Virus record (IMG/VR): IMGVR_UViG_3300021335_000960
Location: 1 to 21,177 of that record
Direction: 5' to 3' (one strand)
DNA from: a virus
Length of the DNA: 21,177 bases
Shown here: positions 2,355 to 11,769 of the stretch, piece by piece
Numbering within the stretch: position 1 is the first letter of the stretch
Layout: each line of letters opens with the position of its first letter
Translations under genes and position numbers: made by a program
Notes under the pieces: model-generated
What the model was told of the DNA's origin: nothing
Databases searched by the model: none
The model's input: the letters and a program-made list of their open reading frames with translations, nothing else

Positions 2355-2918
2355 ATGAATTATAATTTCATAGATCACAAGTCAGACATTCAGTATCTTA
2401 TACATGCAATTAATTTACATGGTCAAAATTTAATAGGTGCTGAAGTCGGATTGTTTAGAGCAGAAAGTTTTTGTACAATGTTACAAAACTGCCCTAACAT
2501 AACAAAGCTCTATGGAATTGATAACTGGCAACCTTACACAGACTATATCGGTTCTATGCCAATGGAAGTTGATGAAAAGATGATTGAACTTGTAGAAATA
2601 CAAGCCATGCATAACTTCAAATGGACAGGTGAAACACAAAGAGGAGAAATATTAAAAATGACTAGTATGGAAGCATCTAAAAAAATAGATGATGCTAGTT
2701 TAGACTTTGTGTTTTTAGATGCCTATATTGATCAACAAAGTACTGTGAACGATCTAAATACTTGGTATACAAAAGTAAAACCAGGAGGATTGTTTAGTGG
2801 ACATGATTGGGATAGTCCTACTGTAGTAGATTGTGTAACACAGTTTAGGAAAGATAATAATATACAGACTAATTTAAGTTGCTACGGTGACACATGGATA
2901 TGGAAAAAAGATGAATAA
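2355..2918 (+). CDS. Class I SAM-dependent methyltransferase (Methyltransf_24-like)
   Basis: 187 aa. Motif I is GAEVGLFRAES (28-38) and the acidic residue after strand 2 is in YGID (53-56). A motif IV-like DFVFLDAYID lies at 117-126, followed by KPGGLFSGHDW (142-152). This is the layout of small Rossmann methyltransferases in the Methyltransf_24/cephalosporin-hydroxylase-like group, which often modify sugars or small metabolites. It starts 3 nt after the clamp gene and ends 8 nt inside the dpdA-like gene. The acceptor is unknown. Given the sugar-activation genes just upstream, a glycan substrate is possible, but a modified-base or protein substrate cannot be excluded. Confidence 0.8.
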   Translation: MNYNFIDHKSDIQYLIHAINLHGQNLIGAEVGLFRAESFCTMLQNCPNITKLYGIDNWQPYTDYIGSMPMEVDEKMIELVEIQAMHNFKWTGETQRGEILKMTSMEASKKIDDASLDFVFLDAYIDQQSTVNDLNTWYTKVKPGGLFSGHDWDSPTVVDCVTQFRKDNNIQTNLSCYGDTWIWKKDE

Positions 2919-4452
2919 AGACTTAACAGCAACACAAAAAGATTATGCACATTTCTTGCCTGCACTTAGTGGGTTTTATGCAACGTATGTAGGCAAGCAA
3001 CGTTTTGACAATTATGTAGATCCAGCAAGGATTCCTAGTAATTTTAAACATGGTGTTGAAAGTCTAAACTATCTTAATAAAGAGCAAGGTGCATTTACTT
3101 ACAAATGGAGTTTGTATAGTGCAGGACATGCCAACTTAGATACAACTATTGAAGTACCTAAAGAAGATATGGTACGTAATAGAGATAGAGAAAACACTTG
3201 GTTACTTGGTGACTCAGGTGGTTTCCAAATTGGTAAAGGTGTATGGGAAGGTGATTGGAAAGATCCAAACTGTCCTAAAGCACAAAAGAAACGTGATGGC
3301 GTTCTAAAATGGATGGACGCTTATATGGACTATGGTATGGTACTTGATATACCTGCCTGGGTAGCACGTTCACCAGAAGGAGCCAAAGCAACAGGTATTG
3401 ACAACTATCAAGATGCCGTAAATGCAACACGTATTAACAATGACTATTGGATGAAAAATAGAACTGGTTCGTGTAAGTTTCTAAATGTATTACAAGGTGA
3501 AACACATACTGATGCTGAAGATTGGTATCAGCAAATGAAAGACTATTGCGATCCTAAGAAATATTCAGATCATTTTAACGGATGGTCAATGGGTGGTCAG
3601 AATATGTGTGATATTCATCTAGCGTTACTACGTCTTATTAGTTTACGTTATGACGGACTTTTAGAAAAAGGATTACATGATGTAATGCACTTCTTAGGAA
3701 CGTCTAAACTAGAGTGGGCTACATTGCTTACAGATGTACAACGTGCAGTTAGGAAACATCATAATGAAAACTTTACTATTACTTTTGATTGTGCTAGTCC
3801 TTTTCTCGCAACCGCGAATGGACAAATATACATTCAGAATGAAACAGCGGATCGTTCGAAATGGACATATAGAATGGTGCCAAGTGTTGACGATAAAAAG
3901 TATGCTACAGACAACCGCCTGTTTAAAGACGCTGTTATATCAGATGGGATATTTAAAAACTTTGAAAACAGCCCAATCACTGCCGAACTTAAAGTATCAG
4001 ACGTTTGCACTTATGCTCCGGGAGACTTAAATAAAATCGGCAAAGAAGGAAAAACATCGTGGGATAGTTTTTCATATGCGATCCAGATGGGTCATAATGT
4101 ATGGAGTCATATAAATGCAGTACAAGAAGCAAACAGACAATACGACAATGGAGTCATTCCGTCAATGCTTGTCGAAGAACGTTTTGACAGGTTATTTTTT
4201 AGAGACATTGTGGAGGCAATATTTGCAACTGATAAAAGAGACGAAGCGATAGCAGTCGCAAACGAATTCCGTAGATATCTAGACACTATAATTGGCACAA
4301 GAGGTGCAACAGGCAAACGTATGACTAATGCCCAAACTTATTTCAACAATTTGTTTGATACAGTAGAAGAAACAACTGACGAAATAGTTGACGGCGAATT
4401 TTCAGAAGAACAAGAAAATAAGTTGGAGGAAATGGAGAATGAGCAATTATGA
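2911..4452 (+). CDS. dpdA: DpdA-like 7-deazaguanine DNA transglycosylase (TGT superfamily)
   Basis: 513 aa from ATG 2911, overlapping the previous stop by 8 nt. A GTG at 2887 would give only eight extra residues. The tRNA-guanine transglycosylase motifs appear in family order: GDSGGFQ (100-106), MVLDIP (143-148), LQGE (194-197), GWSMGG (224-229), HFLGTS (260-265) and FDCASPF (292-298). D101 and D293 would correspond to the TGT general base and nucleophile. The TGT C-terminal CxCxxC zinc site is not recognisable: only C in VSDVCTY and HN in MGHNVW (about residues 378 and 408) remain nearby. DpdA proteins use this fold to swap guanine in DNA for a 7-deazaguanine base. The window also encodes FolE, QueE and a QueD-like protein, supporting DNA rather than tRNA modification. 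The acidic tail is phage-specific. Confidence 0.8.
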   Translation: MNKDLTATQKDYAHFLPALSGFYATYVGKQRFDNYVDPARIPSNFKHGVESLNYLNKEQGAFTYKWSLYSAGHANLDTTIEVPKEDMVRNRDRENTWLLGDSGGFQIGKGVWEGDWKDPNCPKAQKKRDGVLKWMDAYMDYGMVLDIPAWVARSPEGAKATGIDNYQDAVNATRINNDYWMKNRTGSCKFLNVLQGETHTDAEDWYQQMKDYCDPKKYSDHFNGWSMGGQNMCDIHLALLRLISLRYDGLLEKGLHDVMHFLGTSKLEWATLLTDVQRAVRKHHNENFTITFDCASPFLATANGQIYIQNETADRSKWTYRMVPSVDDKKYATDNRLFKDAVISDGIFKNFENSPITAELKVSDVCTYAPGDLNKIGKEGKTSWDSFSYAIQMGHNVWSHINAVQEANRQYDNGVIPSMLVEERFDRLFFRDIVEAIFATDKRDEAIAVANEFRRYLDTIIGTRGATGKRMTNAQTYFNNLFDTVEETTDEIVDGEFSEEQENKLEEMENEQL

Positions 4453-4648
4453 TAACGAGGCAGACAAAATATGTGCAAGGCTACAAGAAGTAGAACGGAA
4501 ACATAGATCTCTTGACAAAGAGATTGAAATGCGTTATAATAATGTTACAGTTGATGAAGAAGTTCGCAGAATGAAAACTATGAAATTATATTTAAAAGAT
4601 GAAATTTATAGATTAAACGAAAGACTAATACAGGCAAAACTAAAATGA
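4439..4648 (+). CDS. DUF465/YdcH-like coiled-coil small protein
   Basis: 69 aa from ATG 4439, overlapping the dpdA stop by 14 nt. GGAGGA at about 4425-4430 serves as ribosome-binding site; an upstream in-frame ATG at 4388 lies deep in dpdA and lacks one. The protein is highly charged and helical: LQEVERKHRSLDKEIE, then VRRMKTMKLYLKDEI. This matches the E. coli YdcH/DUF465 pattern (KHxxLDxEI ... MKxxKLxLKDE). The family forms helical hairpins and has no firmly established biochemical role. A perfect sigma70 promoter lies inside the gene (4512-4540) and would drive the next gene. It ends with a 4-nt overlap with the gene at 4645. Confidence 0.75.
   Translation: MSNYDNEADKICARLQEVERKHRSLDKEIEMRYNNVTVDEEVRRMKTMKLYLKDEIYRLNERLIQAKLK
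4512..4540 (+). promoter_or_regulatory. Perfect sigma70-type promoter inside the DUF465 gene
   Basis: TTGACA 4512-4517, 17-bp spacer, TATAAT 4535-4540. The hexamers encode parts of LDKE and RYN of the DUF465 protein, so both functions share the DNA. It would start transcripts near 4547, about 100 nt before the gene at 4645. Confidence 0.75.
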
Positions 4649-5157
4649 AAAGAACATACGAAACAGGCATAGCAGAGGACGTTGTTTTCTTTACAGGTAT
4701 CGAAGTAGAAAAAACTCCTGCTCACGGAATGGATACGCTATTTGTTACAGGTGTACAACCATGTGATACTATACAAGAAAAATTAGAAGATAGACAGCAC
4801 ATTTTCTTTGGTGCTAATCACAGTTTTGAACCACTTAATGAAGAAGAATGGAATAAATGGGAAAGAATGATTAAGGCCTTCTTAACTGCGGGTAAGTTAT
4901 GTTCTCTTGATATTCCAATTAATTATGCAGAAGACTTTCTTGAAAGTGGACTTACAGAATATGAAAACTTTATTCCACAACTACGTATTCCGTTGCCTTA
5001 CGTAAAACAGTGGAACTACAACACTATGTTGAAGATTGATGATAAAGGATTTAAGGCAACTAATCCAGGTGTATGGTGCCATAGTTTACATGATCTAATG
5101 GATAGAGAAAAATTCACAGATTGGACAAAGTATGGCCTTGACAAGCCAGTAAAGTGA
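4645..5157 (+). CDS. Conserved phage protein of unknown function, between dpdA and queD-like
   Basis: 170 aa with no catalytic motif that I can name. Distinct segments are HIFFGANHSF (52-61), a middle ENFIPQLRIPLPY, LKIDD near 128, and a Trp-rich C-terminal part with TNPGVWCHSLHDL and FTDWTKYGLD. The sequence resembles a conserved unknown that I recall from marine T4-like phages, but I cannot name a family. It is soluble, with no signal peptide or membrane segment. It sits between the transglycosylase and the QueD-like gene, has its own perfect promoter upstream, and carries another in its last 20 nt. A role in deazaguanine synthesis or delivery is only an inference from position. Confidence 0.8.
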   Translation: MKRTYETGIAEDVVFFTGIEVEKTPAHGMDTLFVTGVQPCDTIQEKLEDRQHIFFGANHSFEPLNEEEWNKWERMIKAFLTAGKLCSLDIPINYAEDFLESGLTEYENFIPQLRIPLPYVKQWNYNTMLKIDDKGFKATNPGVWCHSLHDLMDREKFTDWTKYGLDKPVK

Positions 5158-5212: not shown

Positions 5213-5671
5213 ATGATGAGAGAAGAAGATAAAAAAATCTATATGGAAAACAAGGTAAATAGATCTATATGGGTAACATTCAAGAAAGAGGGTATACACA
5301 AATATCCAGCGGCACTAGATGATCCGAAACTTGCAACAGGCGATTGGGACGATGTTTCGTTTCTTGGTTATCCTCACCGTCATATTTTTCATTTCAGGGT
5401 GCAAATCGAAGTGCGCCACAACGATAGAGATATCGAATTCATCCAGTTCAAAAGATGGCTCGAAAGACTCTATTCAGGAACAGATAGTAACGGAGGTGAA
5501 GCGAAGGGCTCAACCGACGCTGACGTGCTCCTTTTAGATTACAAGTCGTGCGAAATGATTGCGGACGAGTTGTATGAGAAGATCTCTGCAAAATATCCTG
5601 GCCGTTATGTAGAGATTGAAGTTGCCGAAGATGGCGAAAACGGCTGTAACATAAAATATCCAAAACCCTAG
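5213..5671 (+). CDS. queD: QueD/PTPS-like T-fold protein (6-carboxytetrahydropterin synthase-like)
   Basis: 152 aa from ATG 5213. I chose this start because GAAGGA (5198-5203) precedes it at good distance, and the earlier in-frame ATG at 5165 lies inside a -10 box; starting at 5165 would give 168 aa. The order of features fits PTPS/QueD. FKKEGIHKYP resembles FxxAHRLP (H29), YPHRHIFHFRVQIEV resembles LHGHxFxVxLEI (H55, H57), DIEFIQFK (73-80) resembles DFxxLK, SCEMIADELYEKI resembles PTSExLAxWI, and EVAEDGENGC resembles the VxET strand. The three histidines could bind zinc. The catalytic cysteine that QueD has between the first His and HGH is absent. FolE, QueE and DpdA-like proteins in the window support a pterin/deazaguanine role. 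A divergent activity is possible. Confidence 0.6.
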   Translation: MMREEDKKIYMENKVNRSIWVTFKKEGIHKYPAALDDPKLATGDWDDVSFLGYPHRHIFHFRVQIEVRHNDRDIEFIQFKRWLERLYSGTDSNGGEAKGSTDADVLLLDYKSCEMIADELYEKISAKYPGRYVEIEVAEDGENGCNIKYPKP

Positions 5672-5695
5672 ATGCTGTTAAAAGGAATAGAAACA

Positions 5696-5938
5696 ATGGC
5701 AATCAAATTTGATCGAGAAGCATATAAGACTATTTTCGACGATCTTGAAACCTTTAAAGAGTTTTGTGCAACTGCATATAACTTAGGTTTCGAAAGTGGA
5801 TTTAAGTTCGATGAAAAGAACTTATACAACAGTAAGAGCTACGAGTGGAGAGCTTTTCAAAATTATTTAAAATATGGGAAACCCCCTAAACCACGTAATA
5901 AAAACGCAGGACGTTTTAATAGTAACCGGAGAAACTAA
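5696..5938 (+). CDS. Small conserved phage protein, unknown function
   Basis: 80 aa. ATG 5696 is preferred over the in-frame ATG at 5672 because AAAGGAA (about 5680-5686) lies at the right distance, and ATG 5672 abuts the previous stop without a ribosome-binding site. The N-terminal two thirds are aromatic and acidic (FDDLETFKEFCATAYNLGF), followed by a WRAFQNYLKYG segment and a basic PKPRNK...NRR tail that could contact nucleic acid. The stop and the next start form TAATG at 5936-5940, indicating translational coupling to the glycosyltransferase. No family recognised. Confidence 0.7.
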   Translation: MAIKFDREAYKTIFDDLETFKEFCATAYNLGFESGFKFDEKNLYNSKSYEWRAFQNYLKYGKPPKPRNKNAGRFNSNRRN

Positions 5939-6984
5939 TGACTATTCATATTGTAGACATCGAAGCAGTAGATACACGTTATACTAAGCAATGGAAGGAA
6001 TATCTTCCAAAGCAACTGCGACGAGCTACAAATGAAGAAGTAGTTGTTATAAGTGGAGGAGAAACGCCTCAGGCTACAACGCCTGGGGCATTTCTTAACT
6101 TCGGCGGTACAAACGTATACAAGTCTAAACAACTTGAACAAATAGGAAAAATGTTTTGTAATGGAACTGTTAAGGACGGTGATTATTTTCTCTATACTGA
6201 TGCCTGGAATCCTACAGTGGTACAACTACGCTACATGGCAGAGTTACTCGGTGTTGATATTTGCATTGGTGGTTTGTGGCATGCAGGTAGTTATGATCCG
6301 CAAGATTTTTTAGGCAGACTTATAGGTGATAAACCTTGGGTAAGACATGCTGAACAAAGTATGTATGAATGCTATGATGATAATTTTTTTGCTAGTGAGT
6401 TTCATATAGACTTATTTGCAAAAAGTTTAGATATAGATGATACAAAGACTCATCGTGTAGGTTGGCCTATGGAGTATCTAAAGAACAGTTTAGACAGTTA
6501 TAAAAATATGGAGAAGAGGGATCTTATATTGTTTCCTCATAGAGTTGCTCCAGAGAAACAAGTTGAAATATTTAGAGATCTTAAAACACAACTTCCACAA
6601 TATGATTTTATAGTTTGCCAAGAGCAAACGCTTACAAAAAATGAATATCATAATATGTTAGGTGAAGCAAAACTAGTATTCAGTGCTAACTTGCAAGAAA
6701 CACTTGGTATTAGTTGGTATGAAGGTGCATTAGTAGATACTATTCCAATGGTGCCTGATAGATTAAGTTATAGTGAAATGGCACTTCCTGAGTTCAAATA
6801 CAACAGTGATTGGACTATTGACTATGATTCATATATGCAAAACAGAGACAAAGTAGTAAAGCAAATTGTTGAATACATGGAAAATTATAAAGACTTTTTA
6901 CCTAGCATACAAAAGCAGGTTACTAAATTACATAAGGAGTTTTTTAGTGGTAAAGAATTATATAGGGTAATTGCAGATGAATGA
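5938..6984 (+). CDS. GT-B fold glycosyltransferase (family 4-like)
   Basis: 348 aa. The C-terminal half has the features of retaining GT-B enzymes. FPHRVAPEKQ (199-208) is a donor-domain loop with the typical R/K, and NLQETLGISWYEGAL (251-265) contains an E-x7-E pair (E254/E262) that in GT4 enzymes contacts the nucleotide-sugar. An IPMVPDR loop follows. The N-terminal acceptor domain (1-185) has YTDAWNP and GLWHAGSYD and is not diagnostic. It is likely to transfer a sugar from an NDP donor to phage DNA, protein or a host glycan; the acceptor is unknown. The sugar-activation genes at 1-1626 could supply donor. It is coupled by TAATG to the small gene upstream and overlaps the next gene by 8 nt. 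Confidence 0.75.
   Translation: MTIHIVDIEAVDTRYTKQWKEYLPKQLRRATNEEVVVISGGETPQATTPGAFLNFGGTNVYKSKQLEQIGKMFCNGTVKDGDYFLYTDAWNPTVVQLRYMAELLGVDICIGGLWHAGSYDPQDFLGRLIGDKPWVRHAEQSMYECYDDNFFASEFHIDLFAKSLDIDDTKTHRVGWPMEYLKNSLDSYKNMEKRDLILFPHRVAPEKQVEIFRDLKTQLPQYDFIVCQEQTLTKNEYHNMLGEAKLVFSANLQETLGISWYEGALVDTIPMVPDRLSYSEMALPEFKYNSDWTIDYDSYMQNRDKVVKQIVEYMENYKDFLPSIQKQVTKLHKEFFSGKELYRVIADE
6061..6094 (+). repeat. Imperfect inverted repeat inside the glycosyltransferase gene
   Basis: GAAA-c-GCCTCAGGC (6061-6074), loop TACAAC, then GCCTGGGGC-a-TTTC (6081-6094). In RNA this gives a 13-pair stem with one G-U pair and one C-A mismatch, unusually GC-rich for this DNA. It lies about 120 nt into the coding sequence. 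Confidence 0.6.
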
Positions 6985-7306: not shown

Positions 7307-7802
7307 TTTAATGGACAAACTTGGCAGACGCCGAGTAATTACAGATAGAACAGGTAAGATTCCATATCTTATACGCTACTATCTATTTTTAAAAGAACGT
7401 AAGAACTTTCCTTTTAACATTACGTTACATAAAGTATTAGTAAGTGATGAACCTACACTACATGATCATCCTTGGAATTGGGGTGCTTTTATTTTAAAAG
7501 GTGGATATTGGGAACACATTCCTATTATTTCAAAAGAAGGTGCAGTTGTAGGATCAACAAGAGTTTGGCGTGGTCCTGGTTCTATTAGATTTAGAAAAGC
7601 AGATGACTTGCACTGGTTAGAACTTGCTAAAGATGAACAAGGAAATGAAATACCGTGTACTAGCATTTTCTTTATGGGACGTAAACAAAAGGAATGGGGC
7701 TTTGTACGTTTTGTACATGCAACAGCAAACAACTGGCAAAATGCTGGTTACAGATGGGTACACAACGAAACTTACTTAAACGAGAAATATAAAAATGATT
7801 AA
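7287..7802 (+). CDS. Cupin-fold putative metal-binding protein
   Basis: 171 aa, starting ATG ATG at 7287/7290 after AGGAG (7276-7280). LHDHPWNWGAFILKGGYWEH (58-77) holds a cupin-1-like H59xH61...E76 set. DDLHWLEL supplies the later histidine (H109) expected in cupin motif 2, followed by IFFMGRKQKEWGF. Cupins of this layout bind Fe, Mn or Zn and act as dioxygenases, isomerases or small-molecule sensors. The substrate is unknown. It resembles an uncharacterised cupin that I recall from tailed phages. It sits between a small acidic protein and a phosphoribosyltransferase with overlaps on both sides, so it probably belongs to the same transcript. A link to nucleotide or sugar chemistry is inferred from neighbours only. 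Confidence 0.7.
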   Translation: MMKFLSNLMDKLGRRRVITDRTGKIPYLIRYYLFLKERKNFPFNITLHKVLVSDEPTLHDHPWNWGAFILKGGYWEHIPIISKEGAVVGSTRVWRGPGSIRFRKADDLHWLELAKDEQGNEIPCTSIFFMGRKQKEWGFVRFVHATANNWQNAGYRWVHNETYLNEKYKND

Positions 7803-8325
7803 GAAACATTATTACAGTTGGACTGATGTTGAACGTATGTGCGTCAGTATTGTCAATCAAATGTACAAAGACGAATGGCGTCCTAACTACATAGTAGGAA
7901 TTACACGAGGTGGTAATGTACCTGCTACAATTATTTCGAACATGACTGGCATACGTTGCGAAGCACTAAAAGTAAGTCTACGTGATGATAATAGAGAAAG
8001 TGAAAGTAACTGTTGGATGGCTGAAGATGCACTTGGATATCCTCATTGTGATACTGGAGATAATAAAAAGAATATTCTAATTGTAGATGACATTAACGAT
8101 ACTGGTGCAACATTCAATTGGATTATGCAGGATTGGCCTGCTGGGTGTTTACCTGACAGCCCAGAGTGGAATAATGTTTGGACTCATAATGTACGTTTTG
8201 CAACACTTACTGAAAATTTAGCAAGTGACTTTAGTAATGTAAGTTATACCTGTCACGAAGTAAACAAAGCAGAAGAAGATGTTTGGCTTGTTTACCCATG
8301 GGAAAATGTTGCAGACTATGCGTGA
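7795..8325 (+). CDS. Type I phosphoribosyltransferase (purine PRTase-like)
   Basis: 176 aa. NILIVDDINDTGATF (93-107) is the 13-residue PRPP-binding signature of type I phosphoribosyltransferases (hydrophobic run, DD, TG). VGITRGGNVPA (34-44) is the PPi loop as seen in xanthine-guanine and hypoxanthine enzymes (RGGxxPA). These enzymes join a purine base to PRPP to give the nucleotide. The specific base cannot be read from sequence. In this setting it could salvage guanine from degraded host DNA, or guanine released when a DpdA-like enzyme swaps bases in DNA; the latter is speculation. It overlaps the cupin gene by 8 nt and the DNA glycosylase gene by 8 nt. Confidence 0.85.
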   Translation: MIKKHYYSWTDVERMCVSIVNQMYKDEWRPNYIVGITRGGNVPATIISNMTGIRCEALKVSLRDDNRESESNCWMAEDALGYPHCDTGDNKKNILIVDDINDTGATFNWIMQDWPAGCLPDSPEWNNVWTHNVRFATLTENLASDFSNVSYTCHEVNKAEEDVWLVYPWENVADYA

Positions 8326-10148: not shown

Positions 10149-10838
10149 ATGAGCAAAGTAGAACAAATAAAAAAGAAATTAGAAGATGCAGGTATTAGAT
10201 ACTGGGCAAATGATAATATTAGTGCAGTTCTTGAAGATGGTGATAAGCAACAATTAATTGAAGAAGCAATTCCTGCTTTTGAAAATGTGTTGCAGACACT
10301 ATTAATTGATACAAAAACAGATCCTAACAGTCAAGATACAGCAAGACGTATGGCTAAGATGTATATCAATGAGATTATGTCTGGTCGTTATGATAAAATG
10401 CCTAACCCAAGTGCATTTCCTAACTACATTGAAGGTGGTTATGAAGGTATGCTTGTTGTGCGAAGCGAACTTACAAGTTTGTGTTCGCATCATCATCAGA
10501 CTGTAAAAGGTGTTGCATACATTGGAATCATTGCAGGCCCTAAATTACTAGGACTAAGTAAATATACCCGAATTGCACAATGGTGTGCTATGCGAGGAAC
10601 ACTACAAGAAGAACTTAATGTTATGATTGCAGATGCAATTCAAGAACAAACAGGTAGTGAACACGTTGGTGTCTATGTACAAGCAACACATGGTTGTTGC
10701 GAAAATAGAGGTATTAGAGCAAAGAGTAGTTTGACACAAACAACTGTATTGCGTGGTGCTTTCAGCAAAGACCCTGCAACTAAGAAAGAATTTATCGATA
10801 ACGTAAAACTGCAACAACAGTTTGCTTGTGGAGTATAA
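10149..10838 (+). CDS. folE: GTP cyclohydrolase I (FolE)
   Basis: 229 aa, ATG 10149 after CGGAGAA. It converts GTP to 7,8-dihydroneopterin triphosphate, the first step of both folate and 7-deazaguanine synthesis. Zinc ligands are visible: LCSHHH gives C112 and H114/H115 (canonical CEHH), and HGCCENRG gives C183 in the HxCMxxRG motif with R187. LGLSKYTRIAQW (134-145) and QEELNVMIADAI match the FolE core strands and QERLTxQIA helix. The N-terminal part contains DTARRMAKMY, matching the DTPxRVAKM segment. Length is normal. It is the first gene of a run folE-queE-unknowns-RNase H under its own perfect sigma70 promoter, and ends 1 nt before the queE start codon. Confidence 0.93.
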   Translation: MSKVEQIKKKLEDAGIRYWANDNISAVLEDGDKQQLIEEAIPAFENVLQTLLIDTKTDPNSQDTARRMAKMYINEIMSGRYDKMPNPSAFPNYIEGGYEGMLVVRSELTSLCSHHHQTVKGVAYIGIIAGPKLLGLSKYTRIAQWCAMRGTLQEELNVMIADAIQEQTGSEHVGVYVQATHGCCENRGIRAKSSLTQTTVLRGAFSKDPATKKEFIDNVKLQQQFACGV

Positions 10839-10839
10839 T

Positions 10840-11769
10840 ATGCCAGAAGTTTTAGAAAAACCTAAAGAAAAGGTTAAGCAACTCAGGTACTCCGAAGCAT
10901 TTTATAGTGTACAAGGTGAAGGTAAATTTGTAGGAGTCCCAAGTGTATTCCTACGTACTTTCGGTTGTAACTTTCGTTGTATGAATTTTGGTACAGGTGA
11001 GAAAAAAGATCGTTGGACTTTACATAAAGAAGGCAAGCGATATAATGATGAAGTAAAGGACCTTATTGATAATAAAGTCCACGAAACTACAAAAGAGTTT
11101 AACGACTTGCCTATTGTACATACAGGTTGTGATACTTATGCAAGTATCTATCCAGAATTCAAACACTTCAATATGCTTAAAACAGTAGATGAAGTGGTTG
11201 AACATTTGTTATCACTTACTCCTAATGGTAAGTGGACACAAGACAATGGACAAGACATACACTTGATAATGACAGGTGGTGAACCTTTGTTAGCGTGGCA
11301 GAGGCTTTATATTGATTTGTTCGAACATCCACGTATGCGAGATCTAAAAAATGTTACATTTGAAACAAATACTACACAAACTCTATATCCAGAGTTCTTC
11401 CAGTATCTCAGCAATCAAGACAGGTTTGAAGTCACTTGGAGTTGTTCCCCGAAACTTGCAGTTAGCGGAGAACCTTGGGATACTGCTATTAAGCCTGATA
11501 TTGCTTTGCAGTATAGTCGTGTTACTGGTAGTGACATTTATCTTAAGTTTGTTGTCGCTACTCAAGATGACTTTGATGAAGTTACGAGAGCTGTGGAGGC
11601 TTATAGAAATGCCGGGGTACAATGTCCGGTATATCTTATGCCGCTTGGCGGACGTTCGGAAGAATATAACCTCAATGTTAAAGAAGTCGCCGAAGCATGT
11701 ATGGAGCGAGGTTGGCGCTTCACACCAAGACTCCACATTAGCCTATTCGGAAATGCCTGGGGAACCTAA
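10840..11769 (+). CDS. queE: 7-carboxy-7-deazaguanine synthase-like radical SAM enzyme (QueE)
   Basis: 309 aa from ATG 10840, with GGAG at 10830-10833; a TTG at 10822 would lie inside folE. It would convert 6-carboxytetrahydropterin to CDG with a [4Fe-4S] cluster and SAM. The start FYSVQGEGKFVGVPSVFLR (21-39) is the QueE signature and MTGGEPLL is the SAM-binding GGE motif. The cluster motif is unusual: C43xxxC47 is followed by MNF where CxxxCxxC needs a third Cys. A CDTYA sequence, typical of what follows the third Cys in QueE, occurs only at 97-101, with C97. The intervening charged segment (about 51-95) thus looks like an insertion that displaces the third ligand. Length exceeds the usual 210-245 aa accordingly. 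Confidence 0.88.
   Translation: MPEVLEKPKEKVKQLRYSEAFYSVQGEGKFVGVPSVFLRTFGCNFRCMNFGTGEKKDRWTLHKEGKRYNDEVKDLIDNKVHETTKEFNDLPIVHTGCDTYASIYPEFKHFNMLKTVDEVVEHLLSLTPNGKWTQDNGQDIHLIMTGGEPLLAWQRLYIDLFEHPRMRDLKNVTFETNTTQTLYPEFFQYLSNQDRFEVTWSCSPKLAVSGEPWDTAIKPDIALQYSRVTGSDIYLKFVVATQDDFDEVTRAVEAYRNAGVQCPVYLMPLGGRSEEYNLNVKEVAEACMERGWRFTPRLHISLFGNAWGT

Follow-up and report, generated by a model that had tools for sequence, protein, structure and literature searches.

A predicted T-fold protein family related to QueD and lacking its catalytic triad occurs in probable QueC-less 7-deazaguanine DNA-modification clusters

The window analysed here, that is, the whole record of a 21-kb virus fragment (21,177 nt) within which all that is visible of the genome lies, encodes a protein of the PHROG 17812 family. 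This family is a real, widespread and unannotated T-fold subfamily found in what are probably QueC-less 7-deazaguanine DNA-modification clusters. We put the probability that it belongs to a QueC-less 7-deazaguanine pathway at roughly 85%, and consider it about an even bet that the reaction is specifically the decarboxylation of 7-carboxy-7-deazaguanine (CDG). A tunnel-fold scaffold that has lost its catalytic triad while apparently keeping its metal and its purine pocket makes the question of the reaction directly testable. The genes and codons concerned are listed in Table 1.

Table 1. Genes of the window and codons of the QueD-fold gene referred to in the text.
Feature	Coordinates	Strand	Evidence or conservation
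TGT/DpdA-like transglycosylase, DSGGFQ motif, likely start ATG 2911	2887..4452	+	TGT in PDB, profile E=3e-4
170-aa recurrent neighbour	4645..5157	+	near 118/222 distinct members; no family match
QueD-fold protein, PHROG 17812 family, 168 aa	5165..5671	+	model pLDDT 90.8; Foldseek to QueD/PTPS
His45 codon, first of three zinc-type histidines (QueD His16)	5297..5299	+	261/261 conserved; aligned to QueD
Leu67 codon, position of QueD catalytic Cys27	5363..5365	+	Leu in 261/261
His71-Arg72-His73 codons (QueD His31-Gly-His33)	5375..5383	+	His71, His73 in 261/261
Loop insert, low model confidence	5483..5512	+	missing from most relatives
Ser128-Cys129-Glu130 codons (QueD T-S-Glu86, substrate-binding region)	5546..5554	+	261/261
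Glu155 codon (QueD Glu110, pterin anchor)	5627..5629	+	259/261 by alignment
88-aa recurrent neighbour	5672..5938	+	near 129/222 distinct members
GT4-type glycosyltransferase, tightest neighbour	5938..6984	+	Glycos_transf_1 in 14/24 relatives, best 7e-12
Xanthine/guanine-type phosphoribosyltransferase	7795..8325	+	PF00156 E=7e-8; near 100/222 distinct members
FolE, GTP cyclohydrolase I	10149..10838	+	PF01227 E=2e-37
QueE, 7-carboxy-7-deazaguanine synthase	10822..11769	+	phrog_2076 E=4e-53

Fold, family membership and active-site residues

The original prediction described a QueD/PTPS-like protein encoded at positions 5213-5671 only (153 aa). That ORF and all the motifs cited for it (H29, H55xH57, DIEF, CEMIA and AEDGENG) are present, and the start of the gene is better read as ATG 5165, because the relatives align from residues 1-8 of the resulting 168-aa version, in whose numbering the motifs correspond to H45, H71xH73, E91F92, C129E130 and E155. 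Sequence searches of Pfam, NCBIfam and PDB with the window protein returned noise only, and profile and fold comparisons were therefore used. The profile match of the window protein to PHROG 17812 (E=2.7e-32) assigns it to a group that has no functional annotation and is matched by 47 of 47 family representatives; its match to the QueD PHROG has an E value of 0.018-0.03, and the PF01242 and QueD models matched three of the 47 members, none with an E value below 0.011, which is not above cut-off. Comparison of the family profile with that of QueD gave E=3e-6 and a probability of 88, against 0.2 for an unrelated profile. In the AlphaFold model, which was based on 47 aligned family members, the elements follow the order beta-beta-alpha-alpha-beta-beta, and the top Foldseek matches were Pyrococcus PTPS and E. 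coli QueD (TM ~0.73-0.77 by target length), with a probability of 1.0 for both PTPS 2dj6 and E. coli QueD 4ntk. The window protein is thus modelled as a T-fold of PTPS/QueD type, in line with what had been proposed from the order of its motifs, and the closest solved structures are those of PTPS and E. coli QueD rather than of any unrelated fold.

A tblastn search of 50,697 phage records found the family in 26, where it is labelled as hypothetical protein; the phiST member is CGPG_00067, and YP_007673448.1 is an accession representing the family. The viral-contig collection contained at least ~600 stretches with the family per scan, and the prokaryote collection had it on 19 contigs, some of them viral and others clearly chromosomal, including those of Magnetospirillum, Methylobacterium and Streptomyces; no plasmid relatives were found in a search for them. 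The family had been suspected to be a distinct phage subfamily, and it is indeed a distinct subfamily, albeit one that these three bacterial genera share with phages. Its conservation over hundreds of viral contigs is far beyond chance; many marine viral contigs carry it, and it goes by the name of hypothetical protein in isolate phages. Some members carry long N-terminal extensions (L007:9215-10366, 383 aa; L011:9431-10312, 293 aa), and that of the MA9V-3 member looks, by eye, to be of homing-endonuclease type.

The catalytic triad of QueD and PTPS enzymes consists of Cys, Asp and His. Six residues were invariant across 13 QueD sequences (Cys27, His31, Asp70, His71, Glu86 and Glu110). In our alignment set of 261 family copies (222 distinct proteins), His45, Leu67, His71, His73, Arg88 and Glu91 (the R and E of the RDxEF motif), Ser128, Cys129 and Glu130 are invariant, and Glu155 varies in two copies; the Streptomyces copies, which are outliers of the family, are without it. 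His45, His71 and His73 align in the same order with QueD His16, His31 and His33, and would be clustered in space as a putative zinc-binding site. Between its first His and the HxH pair the window protein has no Cys, exactly as had been pointed out, and the position equivalent to Cys27, four residues before HxH, is never Cys or Glu in any of the 261 copies, all of which have Leu there. A Cys does occur elsewhere between the first His and HxH in 43 of the 261 relatives, at scattered places. Moreover, the Asp70-His71 segment is missing from the family in the alignment. The loop in this region is only ~19-28 residues long in most relatives, the loop insert that the window protein has at this place does not restore Asp-His, and the 'DH' that some members read just before SCE is not equivalent to the QueD dyad. 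By alignment, all three residues of the QueD triad are absent from the family. Since the Asp-His dyad was lost along with the Cys, the change is not a one-residue replacement; of the options first put forward, a different chemistry is likely. The core point of the original prediction stands, and is stronger than was stated.

Pathway context and proposed reaction

The pathway survey covered 20 viral records with the family, namely 11 isolate phage genomes and 9 viral contigs. QueE was found in all 20 records. A separate PF01242 QueD was found in 10 of the 11 isolate phages, with a weak match in Ahp1 and none in D479, and in 2 of the 9 contigs. QueC was essentially absent from the 20 records, with weak partial matches in three; in comparison, it is present in 331 phage records. 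With QueE present and QueC essentially absent, the pathway therefore runs from GTP through dihydroneopterin triphosphate and 6-carboxytetrahydropterin to CDG and stops before preQ0, and no pathway intermediate other than CDG, the product of FolE, QueD and QueE, is shared by the surveyed genomes. The combination of FolE, QueE, a TGT-like protein and a glycosyltransferase without QueC points to 7-deazaguanine for DNA, and not to the other pterin product that had been envisaged. The family signature (GxHxYP, HRHxF, HxDRDxEF, SCE and EDGENG) would mark phages in which the replacement of guanine in DNA is expected to end before preQ0.

We propose that the protein is a zinc-binding T-fold enzyme derived from the QueD/PTPS superfamily, and that it would have kept the metal site made up of three His as well as the pocket that grips the 2-amino-4-oxo-pyrimidine edge (Ser and Glu of SCE plus Glu155), without keeping the Cys/Asp/His machinery by which QueD removes the pterin side chain. 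In a pathway that lacks QueC, it would take over once FolE, QueD and QueE have acted, bind CDG with the carboxylate on zinc and decarboxylate it to 7-deazaguanine, and the adjoining TGT/DpdA-like protein would then put this base into phage DNA in place of guanine. Action on CDG is suggested because the metal site and an intact pocket are retained, the residues that cleave the side chain are gone, CDG is made and QueC is lacking. Among the reactions conceivable on this substrate, decarboxylation while zinc holds the carboxylate is the most likely, as the simplest that fits. It counts against this reading that, apart from the predicted DpdL, no decarboxylase of QueD-type fold is known to us. A precedent for the reaction is provided by tubercidin synthesis, in which CDG decarboxylation is carried out by an unrelated UbiD enzyme (PMC6112128). 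In the same route TubE is a CDG phosphoribosyltransferase (PMC6112128), and because of this the phosphoribosyltransferase of the window may likewise handle deazaguanine bases.

Neighbouring genes and alternative readings

Neighbours were counted for the 131 distinct members that have 4 kb or more of flanking sequence on either side; their loci had been picked because they resemble a small number of queries, and do not represent independent lineages. A glycosyltransferase was present in 105, a TGT-like gene in 99, FolE in 105 and QueE in 96, and the order TGT - family - glycosyltransferase was seen in 88. All partner genes lie on the same strand as the family gene, and the glycosyltransferase is at most 3 kb away from it in 204 of 206 loci. 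Among the 50,697 phage records, 12 of the 13 with a TGT of the window type and 15 of the 15 with a full-length copy of the glycosyltransferase also carry the family. The AlphaFold model of the window TGT-like protein has a pLDDT of 86.6, and its top nine Foldseek matches are TGTs; it is too distant from a 9g/CAjan DpdA profile built from three sequences only for profile comparison. The genomes of phiST, MA9V-3, Ahp1 and D479 are without the window-type TGT and glycosyltransferase (the TGT match in phiST is weak only), and have another, compact TGT-like gene downstream (L002:8810-9589, L011:10785-11579, L008:10417-11289 and L009:10686-11543); these compact proteins are 259-290 aa long, have LDNGA/MDNSAFE motifs and are weakly related to the window TGT. 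No TGT was identified in RHph_I1_18 and Bakedbeans.

Several gene arrangements were observed besides. In the window, a HAD-type phosphatase or mutase gene and then a nucleotide-sugar epimerase gene (50-1626) lie upstream of the modification genes and could feed the glycosyltransferase. In Magnetospirillum (L247:6835-11687) the run is glycosyltransferase - family - TGT - 114 aa - QueD - 288-aa protein; it is largely conserved in five loci and has a phage integrase gene nearby. In Methylobacterium frigidaeris (L263:90-4697) the order is TGT-like - membrane protein - family - glycosyltransferase - possible CoiA-like nuclease, where the membrane protein resembles the putative preQ0 transporter of CAjan; the nuclease was considered as a partner and rejected, being found beside some bacterial copies and not conserved. 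No fusion of the family with the glycosyltransferase was seen in the fetched loci, the only informative fusion being one with an AAA_18 kinase-like domain (L141:7192-8154). In phiST (L002:8329-8808) the family domain is followed by an AAA_18 kinase-like domain, and a MazG gene precedes it.

Decarboxylation alone leaves the base without an obvious handle for the tightly linked glycosyltransferase, and the recurrence of this partner suggests that some of these DNAs carry a sugar too. On this point we tentatively consider that the TGT-like protein, the triad-less QueD-fold enzyme and the GT4 glycosyltransferase may form a widespread, undescribed module that puts glycosylated, QueC-independent 7-deazaguanine into the DNA of marine T4-like viruses, of jumbo phages of the PA5oct/Paride type and of a small number of bacterial chromosomes. 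Given the glycosyltransferase partner, the DNA of the cultured isolates PA5oct, Paride and ACP17 is predicted to contain a guanine derivative that bears a sugar. The foremost alternative to decarboxylation, which we regard as rather unlikely, is that the family turns CDG into a product other than 7-deazaguanine, with a group to which the glycosyltransferase attaches a sugar, so that a glycosylated 7-deazaguanine would end up in DNA. The 88 loci with the order given above argue for it, as do the isolate phages, in which nearly all TGT matches and every full-length glycosyltransferase fall in family carriers, and the overlap between the family gene and the glycosyltransferase gene in Methylobacterium. 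On the other hand, this glycosyltransferase is missing from phiST, MA9V-3, Ahp1, D479, Bakedbeans and RHph_I1_18, all of which have the family, and it might act on a different base or on a surface sugar instead.

Two further alternatives are both improbable. According to the first, the family would be a 6-carboxytetrahydropterin synthase of an unusual kind, standing in for QueD or assisting it by means of other catalytic residues. It shares the fold and metal site of QueD, and several large family contigs show no QueD (G001, G003, G004 and G005); these contigs may, however, be only partial genomes, or QueD may come from the host, and the three QueD catalytic residues are all absent from the family. 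In addition, most of the complete phage genomes also have a true QueD, and PA5oct has two. The family is usually accompanied by a true QueD and would therefore perform an additional step, rather than being an altered QueD. The two PA5oct genes (L003, MK797984.1: 169215-169715 and 171534-171944) encode one QueD that retains the three zinc histidines and another of the LHGY type. According to the second alternative, the family would act on a pterin, e.g. 6-carboxytetrahydropterin, rather than on a deazaguanine base. It takes its support from Streptomyces NEAU-Y11, which has a divergent member, in whose genome no convincing QueE was found by three QueE models and where CDG is perhaps not the substrate: the family gene there is followed by QueD, FolE, a TadA-like deaminase and then an FAD-dependent oxidase (L261:7977-10120). 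QueE, however, is found in all 20 other records tested, the Streptomyces copies are the outliers that have lost Glu155, and the models used may miss an actinobacterial QueE. The Streptomyces gene run is found on two contigs and resembles a natural-product cluster.

Many phage QueDs keep Cys27, Asp70 and His71 but only one of the three zinc histidines (LHGY for LHGH, and no His16; L002:5484-5978, L005:5778-6254, L010:6253-6720, L265, L267 and L268). Least probable of all is that the family is a non-catalytic partner which lends a zinc site to these QueDs, of which it is the reverse in residues kept and with which it often shares a genome, or which is a subunit of the TGT or the glycosyltransferase: a search with an LHGY-type QueD matches 105 phage records, mostly without the family and some with QueC (such as BcepGomr), and in Bakedbeans and Magnetospirillum the QueD found alongside the family has none of the three histidines missing. 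The idea of an obligate donor of zinc sites to LHGY-type QueDs was dropped, since these QueDs often occur where the family does not.

Comparison with known systems

Decarboxylation of CDG remains our preferred reading. With QueD/PTPS (PF01242; E. coli 4ntk) the family shares the predicted T-fold, three zinc-type histidines in order, equivalents of Glu86 and Glu110, and a similar type of gene neighbourhood; it differs in having neither Cys27 nor Asp70-His71, in its shortened loop, in the family-specific HxDRDxEF and SCE motifs, and in co-occurring with a real QueD. In PTPS-III the Cys is replaced by Glu, whereas the family has Leu at this position. The nitrile reductase QueF is also a T-fold enzyme, but acts on preQ0 made by QueC, which is absent or a weak partial match in the 20 viral records. 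TubF, of UbiD type, is proposed to strip the same carboxyl group from the CDG nucleotide, and in this is like the role proposed here; it has an unrelated fold and a proposed prenyl-FMN cofactor, and acts after phosphoribosylation (PMC6112128). The DpdA systems of phages 9g and CAjan encode FolE, QueD, QueE and a transglycosylase together, as the family loci do (PMC6884629). Unlike the latter, 9g and CAjan have QueC and are without both the PHROG 17812 family and this glycosyltransferase.

There may also be a likeness to DpdL, the name that Cui et al. reportedly gave in 2023 to a predicted CDG decarboxylase. In phage DNA, the same authors are said to have detected 2'-deoxy-7-deazaguanine together with the 7-carboxy form of this nucleoside, and Cellulophaga phages are reportedly among those of the DpdL type. 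Both the predicted role and the kind of phage, that is, QueC-less 7-deazaguanine DNA modification, agree with the family, and we know of no glycosyltransferase partner of DpdL. The novelty of our proposal depends on whether DpdL is the PHROG 17812 family, the likeness being one of predicted role. If the two are the same, the enzyme already has a name, and what is new is the breadth of the family and its glycosyltransferase module.
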